Below are positions 8-11,009 of a stretch of DNA of 11,009 nt, one piece after another. The first letter of the stretch is position 1. Each line of letters opens with the position of its first letter. The position numbers and the translations under genes are program-made. The notes below the pieces were generated by a model. It saw nothing but the letters and a program-made list of their open reading frames with translations, was not told the origin of the DNA and did no database searches. Source of the DNA: Deltaproteobacteria bacterium (GTDB lineage: Bacteria > Bdellovibrionota_F > JAHFAK01). The stretch lies in contig JAHFAK010000019.1 of assembly GCA_023250585.1 (NCBI GenBank), forward strand, positions 6,846 to 17,854, given 5' to 3'.

Positions 8-1837
8 TCATTCAACGGTTACACTCTTCGCCAAATTCCTCGGCTGATCAATATCTGTTCCACGAAAATCAGCAATATAATATGCAAGAAGCTGAAGTGG
101 AACTACCGTGAGAAGCGGATAAAATAATTCATCAATTGGAGGAACACTCATATAGGCTTTACTCAAGGACATAAGCTTTTCATCTCGTTCTGTTCCCAAA
201 GAAATGATAATGCCTTCTCGTGATTTTACTTCTTCAAGATTTGAAAGCGTTTTTTGATAATAACGATCTCTCGGCGCAATCACTACAACGGGCATTTCTT
301 CATCTATAAGCGCAATTGGTCCATGCTTCATCTCGCCAGCCGCGTATCCTTCAGCATGTATATACGAAATTTCTTTGAGCTTTAATGCGCCTTCAAGAGC
401 AATAGGAAAATTATTTCCTCTGCCTAAATACAAAAAGTCTCGATAATTAAAAAATTCTCGCGCAATTTCTTGTATTGCAGAATCATTGCCGAGTATTTGG
501 TTAATTGCTCCAGGAATTTTCAGAAGTTCTTCGACATATTTAGTAGTCATGTGATGATCTTTTCCATTGATCTCTTGACGTAAAAAAAGAGCAATAGCAG
601 CAAGACACATGAGCTGCGCGGTAAATGCCTTTGTCGAGGCAACTCCAATTTCAGGACCTGCATCGGTGAAAATAGTGTAATCGGATTTTCGATCAATAGT
701 ACTTTCACGAACATTACAAATAGAAACTATTTTTGCTCCGCGTGCCCGTGCTTCCATTAAGGCGCCAATCGTGTCAATAGTTTCGCCGGACTGAGAAATT
801 AAAAGCATCACGGTATGCTTATCTATAATAGGATTTCGATAGCGAAACTCACTCGCAAGATCGACTTCCGTATGAAGCCCACATAAATTTTCAATGAAAA
901 ATTTTCCGACAAGGCCGGCATGATATGAAGTTCCACAGGCAACAATAACAATTCTTGAGATGTTCTGGATTTCTTCTTTTGCAAGAGGAAAATCCCGCAA
1001 ATTAATTCGAAACCGTTCATTATCAACTATATCGGAAAGGGTATCAGCCAAAGCACGAGGCTGCTCAAAGATTTCTTTTTTCATAAAATGTTTATAGCCT
1101 TCTTTTTCCGCAAGCGTTGGATTCCAACTAGTTTCCTTAACTTCTTTGGTAATTTTTTTTCCTGAAAAATCGGTAATGGTGCATCCTGAATTCGAAACTA
1201 CGCCCATTTCATTATCCTCTAAGATAATAAAACGATTCGTATGCCTGATGATTGCAGATATATCAGATGCAACTAACATTTCATCTTTCCCAAGACCAAT
1301 AATCAAAGGATTTAAGTTTTTCGCGATAAAAAGTTGATCTTCAGCTCCTTTAATGATGATGGCAAGCGCGAATGCTCCTTCGACCGCAGCTAACGATTTT
1401 TGAACAGCCTGCATGGGAGTCAGCCCCTCATCGAGCTTTGAATGAATCAAAACAGCAAGCACTTCTGTATCGGTTTCAGAAACAAATTCATATCCCTTTT
1501 TAATGAGTTCTTGCTTTAACTCAGCATGGTTTTCAATAATTCCATTATGAACAAGTGCCACACGAGGTGTGCGATGAGGATGCGCATTCACATCAGTTGG
1601 TCGTCCATGCGTTGCCCAACGAGTATGTCCAATTGCAAGTTTCCCGCATGTTCTCTGTCCCACGAGTTTTTTCTCGAGTTCTATTATCTTTCCTTTTGTT
1701 TTGATAACCTCAATTGAATGATCTTGAAAATAGGCAATTCCTGAAGAATCATATCCTCGATATTCGAGTTTCTTTAACCCTTCTACGACAACATCTTTTG
1801 CTTCTTTTGGGCCCACATATCCAACAATGCCGCACAT
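8..1837 (-). CDS. glmS: Glutamine--fructose-6-phosphate aminotransferase (isomerizing), GlmS
   Basis: Converts fructose-6-phosphate and glutamine to glucosamine-6-phosphate and glutamate, the first committed step to UDP-GlcNAc for peptidoglycan and outer-membrane sugars; cytoplasmic. The 609 residues match the usual family length. Cys2 (MCGIVGYVG) is the class II glutaminase nucleophile after Met removal. HTRWATHGRP (71-80), HNGIIENH (97-104) and the ETDTEV segment (121-126) belong to the same domain. Two SIS sugar-isomerase domains follow: CGTSYHAG (301-308), SQSGETIDT (348-356), ASTKAFTAQ (400-408) and, in the second, an ALEGALKLKE stretch. The canonical tail LAKSVTVE carries the isomerase lysine. 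The ATG at 1835-1837 has an AAGGAG Shine-Dalgarno (1845-1850) seven bases upstream. It is transcribed alone leftward. No glmS ribozyme is evident in the 198-bp upstream gap, which holds a 124-bp repeat instead. Nothing looks broken. Confidence 0.98.
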   Translation of the reverse strand: MCGIVGYVGPKEAKDVVVEGLKKLEYRGYDSSGIAYFQDHSIEVIKTKGKIIELEKKLVGQRTCGKLAIGHTRWATHGRPTDVNAHPHRTPRVALVHNGIIENHAELKQELIKKGYEFVSETDTEVLAVLIHSKLDEGLTPMQAVQKSLAAVEGAFALAIIIKGAEDQLFIAKNLNPLIIGLGKDEMLVASDISAIIRHTNRFIILEDNEMGVVSNSGCTITDFSGKKITKEVKETSWNPTLAEKEGYKHFMKKEIFEQPRALADTLSDIVDNERFRINLRDFPLAKEEIQNISRIVIVACGTSYHAGLVGKFFIENLCGLHTEVDLASEFRYRNPIIDKHTVMLLISQSGETIDTIGALMEARARGAKIVSICNVRESTIDRKSDYTIFTDAGPEIGVASTKAFTAQLMCLAAIALFLRQEINGKDHHMTTKYVEELLKIPGAINQILGNDSAIQEIAREFFNYRDFLYLGRGNNFPIALEGALKLKEISYIHAEGYAAGEMKHGPIALIDEEMPVVVIAPRDRYYQKTLSNLEEVKSREGIIISLGTERDEKLMSLSKAYMSVPPIDELFYPLLTVVPLQLLAYYIADFRGTDIDQPRNLAKSVTVE

Positions 1838-1873: not shown

Positions 1874-1902
1874 CTTATACTAAGTTGCATTCAAAATGAT
1901 AA
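1874..1902 (-). promoter_or_regulatory. Candidate glmS promoter overlapping the 124-bp repeat
   Basis: On the minus strand TTATCA (1897-1902) and TATAAG (1874-1879) are separated by 17 bases, four and five matches to the sigma70 consensus. The -10 lies about 36 bases before the glmS ATG, leaving a short leader that contains the Shine-Dalgarno. The -35, the spacer and half of the -10 lie inside the inverted-repeat element at 1877-2000. Predicted by eye only; in AT-rich DNA such matches can be fortuitous. Confidence 0.4.
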
Positions 1903-2000
1903 ACGTCGGCAAGGAGAAGGCGACGCAAACGTACGTAATGAGTACGTTGAGAAGCCAACGACGAAGCCAACGCAGTTAGCGTTTGCATGCAACTTAGTAT
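1877..2000. repeat. 124-bp non-coding inverted-repeat element, copy 1
   Basis: The ends are a perfect 14-bp inverted repeat, ATACTAAGTTGCAT (1877-1890) and ATGCAACTTAGTAT (1987-2000). At the exact centre is a second dyad, AACGTAC (1928-1934) and GTACGTT (1942-1948), around GTAATGA. The two arms between are both purine-rich on the plus strand and therefore not complementary to each other. They contain CAAGGAG (1910-1916) and CGACGAAGCCAACG (1959-1972). A further pairing, GCAAACG (1925-1931) with CGTTTGC (1980-1986), could compete with the central hairpin. No reading frame is apparent. It fills most of the gap between glmS and the DMT gene. A second element of the same length and design lies at 10247-10370. 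It resembles a MITE/REP-like or structured-RNA element; the family is not recognised. Confidence 0.8.
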
Positions 2001-2035
2001 TACCTATGTAAGAAGCCACCATACGAAAAAGTTTT

Positions 2036-2476
2036 CTATACATCAACATTCTTTTTTAAAAATCTCGTAAGAAAAAGCCCTATAATAATTAATACTATTC
2101 CTATCATCTGATACATCATAGAGTGTATCTTGCCAAATACCGCATCAATAATTGAACCCATAATAATTTGGCCGCTGATGATCAAGGCCGTTGACTTCAT
2201 AACGCCGAGCTTAGGGATAACCACGGTGAATAATACTCCGATAAAAACACCAATTACTCCTCCAAAATAGCTATACAACGGTGGTTCTTGAACATGCGAA
2301 AAGAAACTAAATCCATCGGATAATGCAACCAAGAGAAGAAGAAAAAGAAAACCTCCACAATGATTCCAGAAAGAAGCATTCATTGCTGAGGTAGTAACCC
2401 CTATTCTCGATATAAAGACACGATTAATGGCTAGAAAAATTCCCGCAATAAATGAAAGAAAAAGAGCGTATAGCAT
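2036..2476 (-). CDS. YdcZ/DUF606-type DMT-superfamily membrane protein, second of tandem pair
   Basis: A 146-residue, strongly hydrophobic protein with about five membrane helices. The pattern is that of the DUF606/YdcZ branch of the drug/metabolite transporter superfamily: a glycine-bearing first helix (AGIFLAINRVF), a central YFGGVIGVFIGV segment, then LGVMKSTALIISGQI followed by IIDA and a last helix ending in basic residues. Family members occur as short half-size proteins, often encoded in pairs. The ATG (2474-2476) is three bases after the stop of the preceding homologue, and an AGGGAAA ribosome site lies within that gene's last codons, so translation is probably coupled. An inner-membrane heterodimer with the neighbour is a reasonable inference. 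The substrate is unknown. It is the last gene of the leftward series, and no classical hairpin-plus-T terminator follows. Confidence 0.8.
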   Translation of the reverse strand: MLYALFLSFIAGIFLAINRVFISRIGVTTSAMNASFWNHCGGFLFLLLLVALSDGFSFFSHVQEPPLYSYFGGVIGVFIGVLFTVVIPKLGVMKSTALIISGQIIMGSIIDAVFGKIHSMMYQMIGIVLIIIGLFLTRFLKKNVDV

Positions 2477-8770: not shown

Positions 8771-9409
8771 ATGAAATTTAGGGAATTCTGCAAAAAATTC
8801 AATAAATATCAAATTATTACATATAATGACCTTATTTTTTTTAGTGGGTCTTATGACAGTATAAAAAACAACATTAATCGATGGAGACAAGAGGGTAAGA
8901 TTATTCAGCTGAAAAAAGGCTTTTATACGTTAAGTAATGAATATCGACCGGTGGGTTTATCATTAGAACATGTTTCGAATAGAATCTATACTCCCTCGTA
9001 TATTAGTTTAGAATATGCTCTGTCATATTTTTATAAGATGATCCCCGAAGTGGTCTATGAAGTCACTGCAATCTCTACCAATAAAACCGCATCATTTACT
9101 AATAATCTTGGTCGATTTTCTTATAGGAATATCAAAAAAGAAGCATTCTGCGGATATAATCTTGTACCTGATGAATACGGCATTCCTGTCTTAATAGCGA
9201 CCAGAGAAAAAGCGCTCTTGGATAAAATGTATTTTGAAAAATATATAGATTTTCATAAAACCTACTTTCTTGAGAATATGCGATTACAAAATTATGAAGG
9301 TCTTAACATACGACTTCTGCAAAGTTATATAAAAAAATGGAAATCTCAAAAACTACAAAAGATGTTACCTATCTTAATTAACCTTATTAAAAAGGATCGC
9401 AAACAATGA
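8771..9409 (+). CDS. abiEi: AbiEi-type antitoxin / transcriptional regulator
   Basis: A 212-residue putative type IV antitoxin of the AbiE abortive-infection system; the family counteracts the partner nucleotidyltransferase toxin and represses its own operon. Residues 1-58 look like the usual winged-helix start: a helix, ITYNDLIFFSG, then NNINRWRQEGKIIQLKKGFYTL ending in the wing. The following part has YISLEYALSYF (77-87), EVVYEVTAIST (93-103) and ATREKALLDKMYF (143-155), which matches the conserved A-x-EKALLD motif of the family. The C-terminal end is strongly basic. The ATG has no good ribosome site (TATAAGAAAT precedes it). Its stop overlaps the next ATG as ATGA, the coupling expected for abiE pairs. 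A sigma70-type promoter and a dyad lie just upstream. Likely acquired by horizontal transfer, as is usual for such systems. Confidence 0.85.
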   Translation: MKFREFCKKFNKYQIITYNDLIFFSGSYDSIKNNINRWRQEGKIIQLKKGFYTLSNEYRPVGLSLEHVSNRIYTPSYISLEYALSYFYKMIPEVVYEVTAISTNKTASFTNNLGRFSYRNIKKEAFCGYNLVPDEYGIPVLIATREKALLDKMYFEKYIDFHKTYFLENMRLQNYEGLNIRLLQSYIKKWKSQKLQKMLPILINLIKKDRKQ

Positions 9410-10218
9410 AAGATATTTTACAGAAGAAAGCGCTCTTGATCGAAAATCGGAATGAAAAATATAATTTTATTCGAGAATTCCTCCAGGAGTTAATCCTCAA
9501 AATCATGGATGATACCCAAAAATTCAAGGGATGGTATTTTGTTGGAGGTACGGCACTTCATATTATTTACGATGTTAATCGCTACTCAGAAGATTTAGAT
9601 TTTTCTTCTATGAATTCTGAAAAAATTGTATTTAATGATGCTATTGAGATTCTTGTACAGCAACTTAAGTCGTATGGATTTAACCTTGAGACGAAAATGA
9701 AAACAGAAAAAACGGTTAAAAGTTCTCTTTTTAAATTTTCCAAAATTCTGTATGAAACAAAACTATCTCATCATACAACTGAGAATCTCTTAATTAAACT
9801 CGATCTTGATACAAATCCTCCCAAAGGTGCAGGATTCGCATTGACTGCAGTCAACAAAAATTTTCTTTTTAAGATCCCTCATTATGACCTCCCTTCTCTT
9901 TTTGCCGGGAAGCTCCATGCGATTCTCTGTCGGACTTACGTTAAAGGAAGAGACTATTATGATTTTTTATGGTATTTAACCAAAAAAATACCTGTAAATA
10001 AATCTCTCCTCGAAAATGCCTATAAACAAACTCAACAGAAAGAAATCAGATGTGATACAGAAACCCTCGTTACCCTCTTGGAAGAAAAATTACAGTCTAT
10101 CAACTTTGATGTGGTCATTAATGATGTTAAGTCTTTTATTAAAGACGAAAAAGAATTGGCTTTGATTAATCGAGATATTCTTGGAAAACTTATTGGGACT
10201 ATAGAAATATCGCAATAA
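9406..10218 (+). CDS. abiEii: AbiEii-type nucleotidyltransferase toxin
   Basis: A 270-residue member of the AbiEii/MenT-like nucleotidyltransferase family, DNA polymerase beta fold. Family toxins arrest growth, by GTP-dependent action in AbiEii and by modifying tRNA ends in characterised MenT proteins; this one's substrate is unknown. Catalytic features are intact: VGGTAL (46-51), RYSEDLDFS (59-67, two metal-binding acidic residues D63 and D65), IKLDLDTNPP (130-139), then PSLFAGKLHAILCR (163-176) and KGRDYYDFLWYL (180-191), which carry the conserved lysine and the RDxxD pattern. It starts within the stop of abiEi (ATGA at 9406-9409) with AGGAT upstream. It is full length and looks functional. 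The gene ends 28 bases before the second 124-bp repeat element. The pair probably serves phage defence or plasmid/island maintenance. Confidence 0.9.
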   Translation: MKDILQKKALLIENRNEKYNFIREFLQELILKIMDDTQKFKGWYFVGGTALHIIYDVNRYSEDLDFSSMNSEKIVFNDAIEILVQQLKSYGFNLETKMKTEKTVKSSLFKFSKILYETKLSHHTTENLLIKLDLDTNPPKGAGFALTAVNKNFLFKIPHYDLPSLFAGKLHAILCRTYVKGRDYYDFLWYLTKKIPVNKSLLENAYKQTQQKEIRCDTETLVTLLEEKLQSINFDVVINDVKSFIKDEKELALINRDILGKLIGTIEISQ

Positions 10219-10246
10219 ATAAACAAAACGACAAATATATTGAAAC

Positions 10247-10370
10247 ATACACAACGCAAGAACGAGCAGACCAAGGCACGACGAAGTCAAGGAATGAGGC
10301 GTACTCTTAGTTACGCCGCAATGACGAGACAAGGAGTAACGATGGTATGCGAAGTTATGGCGTTGTGTAT
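10247..10370. repeat. 124-bp non-coding inverted-repeat element, copy 2
   Basis: Bounded by a perfect 11-bp inverted repeat, ATACACAACGC (10247-10257) and GCGTTGTGTAT (10360-10370). A central dyad GGCGTA (10298-10303) and TACGCC (10312-10317) sits at the exact midpoint. The arms are purine-rich on the plus strand and include CGACGAAGTCAAGG (10279-10292) and CAAGGAG (10330-10336), words also found in the element at 1877-2000. No coding potential is evident. It occupies most of the 164-bp gap between convergent abiEii and the rsmB-like gene, and may act as a bidirectional barrier there. No T-tract terminator and no clear target duplication were seen. Confidence 0.78.
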
Positions 10371-10382
10371 AGCAAAGTACTT

Positions 10383-11009
10383 TTAACCCTTCTTCAACGC
10401 TGCCATGTAAAATCCATCGGTTCCTGACTGGGAGGTCGACAGAACTCTTTCAAATTTCTTAGACCATAAAGGATTATGTTTCAAAAATTTCGATATCTGC
10501 CATGTATTTTCAGAGGGAAAAATACTACACGTCACATAGATGAGCCGGCCGGGGTTTCGTACCATGCCTGAATAGTCCTGGAGAATCTGGGATTGCGTTT
10601 GAATTATCTGTTCCATGAATTCATGTTTCAATTTCCATTTCGCATCAGGATTGCGGCGAAGGACACCTGTGCCAGAACAAGGAGCATCAATCAAAACGAC
10701 ATCGCAAGAGGACGCAAGTCTTTTTATAATTTTTGCTGAATCGATGAGACGTATTTCTACGTTTGAAACACCTGCGCGTTTTGTTCTTTTTGCAAGCTCC
10801 TCCAATTTTTTTGGATCCACATCAAGCGCAACAATTTTTCCTTTATTTTTCATGAGAGCTGCCAGATGAAGCGTCTTACCACCGGCACCTGCACATGAGT
10901 CAATCACACGCATACCAGGTTCAACGTGGCAAAATTCTCCGACATGTTGAGAGCTTTCATCTTGTAATTCAAACCATCCTTCCTTAAACATCTCTGTGGT
11001 AAAAAGATT
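10383..11009 (-). CDS. rsmB: 16S rRNA (cytosine-5) methyltransferase, RsmB/Sun family, C-terminal part
   Basis: S-adenosylmethionine-dependent RNA m5C methyltransferase. About 208 residues lie in the window, and the frame stays open to the edge (NLFTTEMFKEGWFELQDESSQ), so the N-terminal part (usually a NusB-like domain in RsmB) lies outside; the ATG at 10991 is internal. Visible in order: FELQDESSQ, the AdoMet site DSCAGAGGKTLHLA with downstream IVALDVDPKKL, motif IV VVLIDAPCSGTGVLRRNPDAKWK, and motif VI YVTCSIFPSEN. The TCS cysteine is the family's catalytic nucleophile and the PCS cysteine aids release. The ending TDGFYMAALKKG is typical for RsmB. RsmF or another m5C enzyme is less likely but cannot be excluded without the N-terminus. 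It converges on the abiE operon. Confidence 0.88.
   Translation of the reverse strand, partial: NLFTTEMFKEGWFELQDESSQHVGEFCHVEPGMRVIDSCAGAGGKTLHLAALMKNKGKIVALDVDPKKLEELAKRTKRAGVSNVEIRLIDSAKIIKRLASSCDVVLIDAPCSGTGVLRRNPDAKWKLKHEFMEQIIQTQSQILQDYSGMVRNPGRLIYVTCSIFPSENTWQISKFLKHNPLWSKKFERVLSTSQSGTDGFYMAALKKG

Follow-up and report, generated by a model that had tools for sequence, protein, structure and literature searches.

The window (the whole stretch of 11,009 nucleotides analysed here) contains two unlinked hairpins, which raise the question of what kind of element they are, what brought them there and why they still fold. We conclude that both are very probably non-autonomous, ERIC-like MITEs, presumably moved in trans by the transposase of an IS with the same ends and kept foldable.

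Two hairpins, two families

The original prediction placed 124-bp hairpins at 1877-2000 and 10247-10370, whose outer stems, 14 and 11 bp long, pair perfectly. The hairpins are present at those coordinates and the outer stems are perfect over those lengths (ATACTAAGTTGCAT in copy 1, ATACACAACGC in copy 2); by eye, both copies also have the claimed central dyads and share, in swapped arms, the motifs CAAGGAG and CGACGAAGyCAAsG. The folds far exceed chance: the strands of copy 1 have z = -6.3 and -7.5 and those of copy 2 have z = -7.1 and -5.5, and in neither case was any of 200 shuffles equally stable. The 124-bp frame, in contrast, is not the unit: the true units are TNA/122 bp/TNA for copy 1, a member of what we call family 1, and the 148 bp at 10222-10369 for copy 2, a member of family 2 (Table 1). 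Because the two copies belong to different families, comparing one with the other is no test of covariation; within family 1, covariation is real.

The purine-rich plus strand of copy 1 is antisense to both flanking genes. Upstream of copy 2, two overlapping genes at 8771-10218, the second AbiEii-like, are likely an AbiE-type toxin-antitoxin pair, and copy 2 follows directly after them.

Table 1. Features of the window that surround or make up the two elements.
Feature	Position	Strand	Remarks
glmS (glutamine-fructose-6-phosphate aminotransferase)	8..1837	-	SIS and GATase domains; start codon about 40 bp left of copy 1
Left target-site duplication TTA, copy 1	1875..1877	.	Matches 2000-2002 exactly
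Copy 1, family 1 element, very probably an ERIC-like MITE, 122 bp	1878..1999	+ (purine-rich strand)	Dispersed copies, homologues, covariation
Left terminal inverted repeat TACTAAGTTGCATTCAAA, copy 1	1878..1895	+	Common to the putative IS
Right terminal inverted repeat, copy 1	1982..1999	-	TACTAAGTTGCATGCAAA on the minus strand
Right target-site duplication TTA, copy 1	2000..2002	.	
YdcZ-type membrane protein gene	2036..2476	-	End about 35 bp right of copy 1
AbiEii-type nucleotidyltransferase gene	9406..10218	+	End 3 bp left of the full element of copy 2
TA flanks of copy 2	10220-10221 and 10370-10371		
Copy 2, family 2 element, very probably a MITE, 148 bp	10222..10369	+	About 30 full or partial genome copies; left block and TA flanks recur
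Family 2 left block of copy 2, 26 nt	10222-10247		Outside the originally predicted frame
RsmB/F-type methyltransferase gene (gene end)	10383..10991	-	Convergent to copy 2

Copies and target sites in the host genome

The host genome is a fragmented assembly of 2.24 Mb in 164 contigs. With copy 1 as the query we recovered about 35 strong family 1 relatives, and with copy 2 about 30 full or partial family 2 relatives. A family 1 covariance model yielded 53 matches at E <= 0.1; one of them repeats a listed copy on its other strand, and the weakest matches include family 2 copies. What had been described as one dispersed family is thus dispersed as claimed, with dozens of host copies, and comprises at least two families. 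According to simple ORF calls for 28 family 1 copies, 13 lie between tandem genes (nine sense and four antisense), eight between divergent genes and four between convergent genes, and three overlap an ORF.

Family 1 is a 122-bp element with TAC...GTA ends and 3-bp TNA target duplications. Flanks identical over 3 bp border 16 of 27 own-genome copies, against 6.2 expected by permutation and with no excess at other lengths; about 40% of the own-genome copies are without identical duplications. For other genomes, the coordinates of the named loci were first chosen with a small bonus for such duplications, and in alignment columns fixed by homology the flanks are identical at exactly 3 bp in 21 of 26 copies, against 8.2 expected and with 0 of 5000 permutations as high. 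TNA is found on both sides in 23 of these 26 copies, and the identical flanks are almost always TNA in own-genome and other-genome copies alike. The duplications indicate that family 1 elements arrive by insertion.

The elements have the attributes of MITEs, being short, non-coding, bounded by terminal inverted repeats and present in many dispersed copies. The MITE reading offered in the original prediction is supported by the dozens of copies, the exact 3-bp target duplications of family 1 and compensated changes in 23 of 34 of its stem pairs, and the genome also holds a putative, incompletely recovered IS whose ends match.

A putative partner IS

A search of the host genome for family 1 ends, allowing up to three mismatches, returned 83 matches, compared with 3 for a control pattern. 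Three contig-end fragments (C27, C65 and C155) carry the 15-bp terminal repeat of family 1, TACTAAGTTGCATTCA, each beside TNA. Among the solo ends, C65 and C27 enter the same sequence: after the repeat come TATAAT (in one case possibly altered at a single base), then AGGAGG, then an ORF that begins MRIATPISNNQRRSIGKLLSKTKSKADFQRVQCM and runs for 34 residues on C65, with its first 20 present on C27. C155 starts in the opposite end; only one of its open frames extends to the contig end, and that frame terminates inside the repeat. Contigs that break in the same sequence are the effect of a multicopy IS on assembly, and we therefore take the fragments to be a putative IS with family 1 ends, recovered incompletely because the assembly breaks inside the element. 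It is a plausible source of transposase.

The short peptides of the putative IS matched no Pfam or NCBIfam model, and a search of 386 genomes and of plasmids with the 34-residue peptide found no homologue outside the host (one plasmid match, at E = 6, is at chance level). No IS with matching ends was found among the other host genomes tried, and solo family 1 ends in a Magnetococcales genome proved to be decayed copies only. Two candidates for the partner were rejected: IS630-type DDE_3 genes of 15 other host genomes are without matching ends, and a truncated IS630-type transposase in the host's own genome (L142 1546-1995) is without family 1 ends. By eye, the latter adjoins ORFs that resemble an IS3-type element. 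An IS630 assignment of the putative IS was made by eye, and we do not claim it.

We propose that a transposase encoded by an IS that shares the terminal inverted repeat would act in trans and cut at the TAC...GTA ends, and that the 122-bp family 1 element would be inserted into TNA, with duplication of the 3-bp target. Presumably it is the putative IS described above that moves these elements. The proposed arrangement is like that of RUP in pneumococcus and IS630-Spn1, where a small non-autonomous element likewise shares its ends with an IS of its host genome (PMC2229807); RUP inserts at TA, whereas family 1 duplicates TNA.

Family 2 and insertion within genes

Family 2 is built alike, but its flanks are TA and it has open reading frames, which allows some copies to lie in frame within genes. 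TA lies on both sides of most copies examined. This invariant TA fits an IS630-like target, although a constant dinucleotide cannot prove duplication, and a search with solo family 2 ends alone gave no clear partner IS. The start of the 26-nt left block resembles the right end of the element. The open reading frames of family 2 are without a transposase, and three copies are inserted in frame: in purE, ahead of an AIR carboxylase (AIRC) domain that starts at residue 56 (L044 951-1649, minus strand); in a 956-residue protein with a PD40 match (L043 157-3027, minus strand); and within an apparent signal peptide (L039 1457-3124, plus strand). Such inserts add about 40 residues, for example ...DRGTTKSRREAYETVRRSDETRSNEGMRSYDVVY.

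In this respect family 2, and only family 2, is like RPE, the Rickettsia palindromic elements, which are palindromic repeats of about 150 bp that lie in frame in genes; the host differs, and the likeness is one of description. ERIC copies have also been reported inside genes with open frames (PMC2759123).

Two further repeats were noticed. A small separate palindrome (TCCTACTACGCTC...GAACGAAGCAGGA), with a repeat of some 7 bp (CGCTGCG) at its flanks, is nested in family 2 copies at L055 1501-1663 and in L051/L054, L053 and L056/L057. A third hairpin family (CCATCTACGGCGTTrG...) has the same plan, and its two copies (L073 437-570 and L076 about 468-590) differ in their outer stems.

Fold, covariation and strand

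In 44 aligned copies the family 1 hairpin has 34 pairs, with 96.4% of cells paired. Pairs changed on both sides number 23 of the 34, whereas shuffles average 10.6 such pairs and slid controls have 5-11. The inner helix reads GGC, AA, G, GA, G, GA, GGC, GA, C on the left and G, GA, GCC, GA, C, GA, C, GAA, GCC on the right. Tandem G.A mismatches thus separate single G-C pairs and short GGC/GCC stems from one another. With RNA parameters the purine-rich strand folds more stably than its complement in 42 of 43 sequences, and with DNA parameters in all 43; the one sequence that departs from this with RNA parameters is copy 1 (-44.3 for the purine strand and -46.4 kcal/mol for the complement). The excess of G.U over A.C cells on the purine strand (84 against 18, a count in which related sequences enter many times) points in the same direction. 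The internal sequence is more than leftover filler: on one strand it forms a hairpin in which single G-C pairs recur among tandem G.A mismatches, and we infer that folding of the purine strand, as single-stranded DNA or as RNA, matters for transposition or for tolerance by the host.

The apical or central stems of the Nitrospinota and Nitrospirae copies L087, L105, L108, L109 and L126 are longer, unrelated inverted repeats, e.g., ACAACCCCCT...GGGGGTTGT.

The original prediction held that the elements are kept for their fold. The stems do covary, and selection is not separated from upkeep by template switching, in which one arm is rewritten from the other so that compensated stems would be a mutational by-product, with no selection for the fold. 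This is a possibility that we take seriously while leaning mildly against it. Wholly replaced outer stems still pair perfectly (over 17 bp in L044, 16 in L058, 18 in L067 and 15 in L124), the left arm of L116 3222-3389 (minus strand) is an inverted copy of the right flank, and the exchange of central stems in the five copies named above could have the same cause. Template switching leaves unexplained, however, both the conservation across phyla of the mismatched internal bases and the consistent strand bias. Pairing may therefore be kept up by selection for folding or by template-switch copying, either of which is compatible with the data; as the latter concerns stem covariation only, it can hold together with the MITE reading.

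Distribution across bacteria

A relative of family 1 (L082, 94 bits) was found in a distant genome, the only match among 59 genomes searched, and a search with the motif GAGGAGCNNNCGACGAAGCCAACG recovered 47 stretches in named genomes. Only part of the right arm was fixed by this motif; the left arm, the ends, the length and the TNA duplication were unselected and yet agree. Hosts of the elements are Geobacteraceae and related Desulfuromonadales, Desulfobacterales, Nitrospirae, Magnetococcales, Nitrospinota and an isolated lineage. Among the plasmids searched there was one copy, on pGLOV01 of Trichlorobacter lovleyi, and the phage records searched contained none. At L124, about 945-1065, an element apparently lies inside a gene with a MutS-like TGPNAGGKT motif, as seen by eye. 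The repeats described for uraniireducens are likewise dispersed and come from the same host group as many of the homologues found here; by description only, they are set apart from the present families by their stated units or sizes.

Relation to ERIC

Among described families, ERIC comes nearest to the present elements; enterobacteria have been fingerprinted by means of it for decades. ERIC (also IRU or RU-1; 127 bp) and family 1 are alike in length, in forming an imperfect-palindrome hairpin and in their (T)ATAC...GTAT(A) ends, and on one and the same strand both carry AAGGCGGCAAG (left arm) and GCCAACGCA (right arm). The present elements thus have the form of an imperfect palindrome of about 127 bp with the ERIC arm sequences in the same order and on the same strand. 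TA is given for the termini of ERIC (PMC2229807), whereas family 1 has the TNA duplication, and the two differ in the apical stem and the GA-rich ladder. A match to an IS has been reported for RUP only (PMC2229807), and family 1 shares its ends with a putative IS while none is reported for ERIC in reviews (PMC2229807, PMC10969869). The range of ERIC is given as Enterobacteriaceae and Vibrionaceae (PMC10969869); none of the hosts found here falls in that range, the present hosts, unlike those of ERIC, lying outside the Gammaproteobacteria. The central dyad of ERIC (GTGAATCCCCAGGAGCTTAC / GTAAGTGACTGGGGTGA) is absent from the present elements, the centre of which is a different stem, and we therefore file them as ERIC-like, not as ERIC.

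For comparison, ERIC copies were retrieved with the published primer sequences, confirmed by matches in 5,373 of 5,426 E. coli genomes. A family 1 covariance model built without ERIC aligned these copies end to end on one strand at 13-42 bits: 41.8 bits for Klebsiella oxytoca, 35.7 for Providencia, 33.0 for Pantoea, 32.7 for Lelliottia, 31.6 for Klebsiella aerogenes and 13.8 for one Klebsiella pneumoniae copy. The E. coli copies reach 13-25 bits, and for most of them the relation is weak, with next to no score from sequence alone. The same model gives family 2 and the third hairpin family 24-41 bits.

We consider common descent of family 1 and ERIC likely, though not proven. If the likeness were instead a convergence of hairpin MITEs, the low scores of the E. 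coli copies would be expected, as would the fact that sequence-only profiles beat pair-preserving shuffles for a minority of copies (the family 1 profile exceeds 0 bits in 4 of 12 ERIC copies and in 4 of 480 shuffles). We nonetheless regard convergence as rather unlikely: ERIC copies of Klebsiella, Providencia, Pantoea and Lelliottia reach 32-42 bits end to end and on the same strand, opposite-strand scores are at most 10 bits where reported, and 4 of 44 family 1 members score above 0 bits with the ERIC profile, against 2 of 528 pair-preserving shuffles, with a maximum of 13.2 against 2.9. The original prediction recognised no described family; a distant relation to a described one, ERIC, is supported, and the elements are only ERIC-like.

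Other explanations

The elements could also be structured RNAs that act mainly in transcripts, in mRNA stability or regulation, their spread being secondary. The better folding of the purine strand in nearly all copies and its G.U excess would suit such a role, as would the orientation-dependent effect of Yersinia ERIC on mRNA decay (PMC2229807, PMC10969869). Own-genome copies, however, occupy tandem, divergent and convergent gaps and also lie inside ORFs, the antisense orientation is found in 4 of the 13 tandem-gap copies and, relative to both neighbours, in copy 1 of the window, a search of Rfam gave nothing above the gathering score, and the target duplications indicate arrival by insertion; we consider a primary role in RNA quite unlikely.

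A REP/REPIN-type element moved by a Y1 (RAYT) transposase, an alternative raised in the original prediction together with a check for RAYT genes, is very improbable: the host genome does have four Y1_Tnp genes, but no copy of the elements lies within about 1.5 kb of any of them, and the described REP systems are short hairpins with a GTAG-type foot (PMC6006769), whereas the present elements are 122-148 bp long and have target duplications. Ordinary intrinsic terminators or chance palindromes can practically be dismissed, since, even with some copies between convergent genes, 8 of 28 family 1 copies lie between divergent genes, no T-run follows the copy 1 hairpin on the plus strand, and the high identity of the dispersed copies and the exact target duplications refute them.

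Implications

Reviews name no known transposase for ERIC, and its origin is likewise unsettled (PMC10969869, PMC2229807). A bolder proposal, which we think unlikely, is that ERIC is a twig of a pan-bacterial hairpin superfamily in which the purine-strand ladder would be conserved through handling of the folded single strand, and that the IS fragment would represent the ERIC-type transposase family. Should the present elements be related to ERIC, ERIC would be one local offshoot of a far older and more widespread group; the putative IS, with its matching ends, would then be a concrete candidate for the transposase, and the conserved mismatch ladder a concrete structure to probe.
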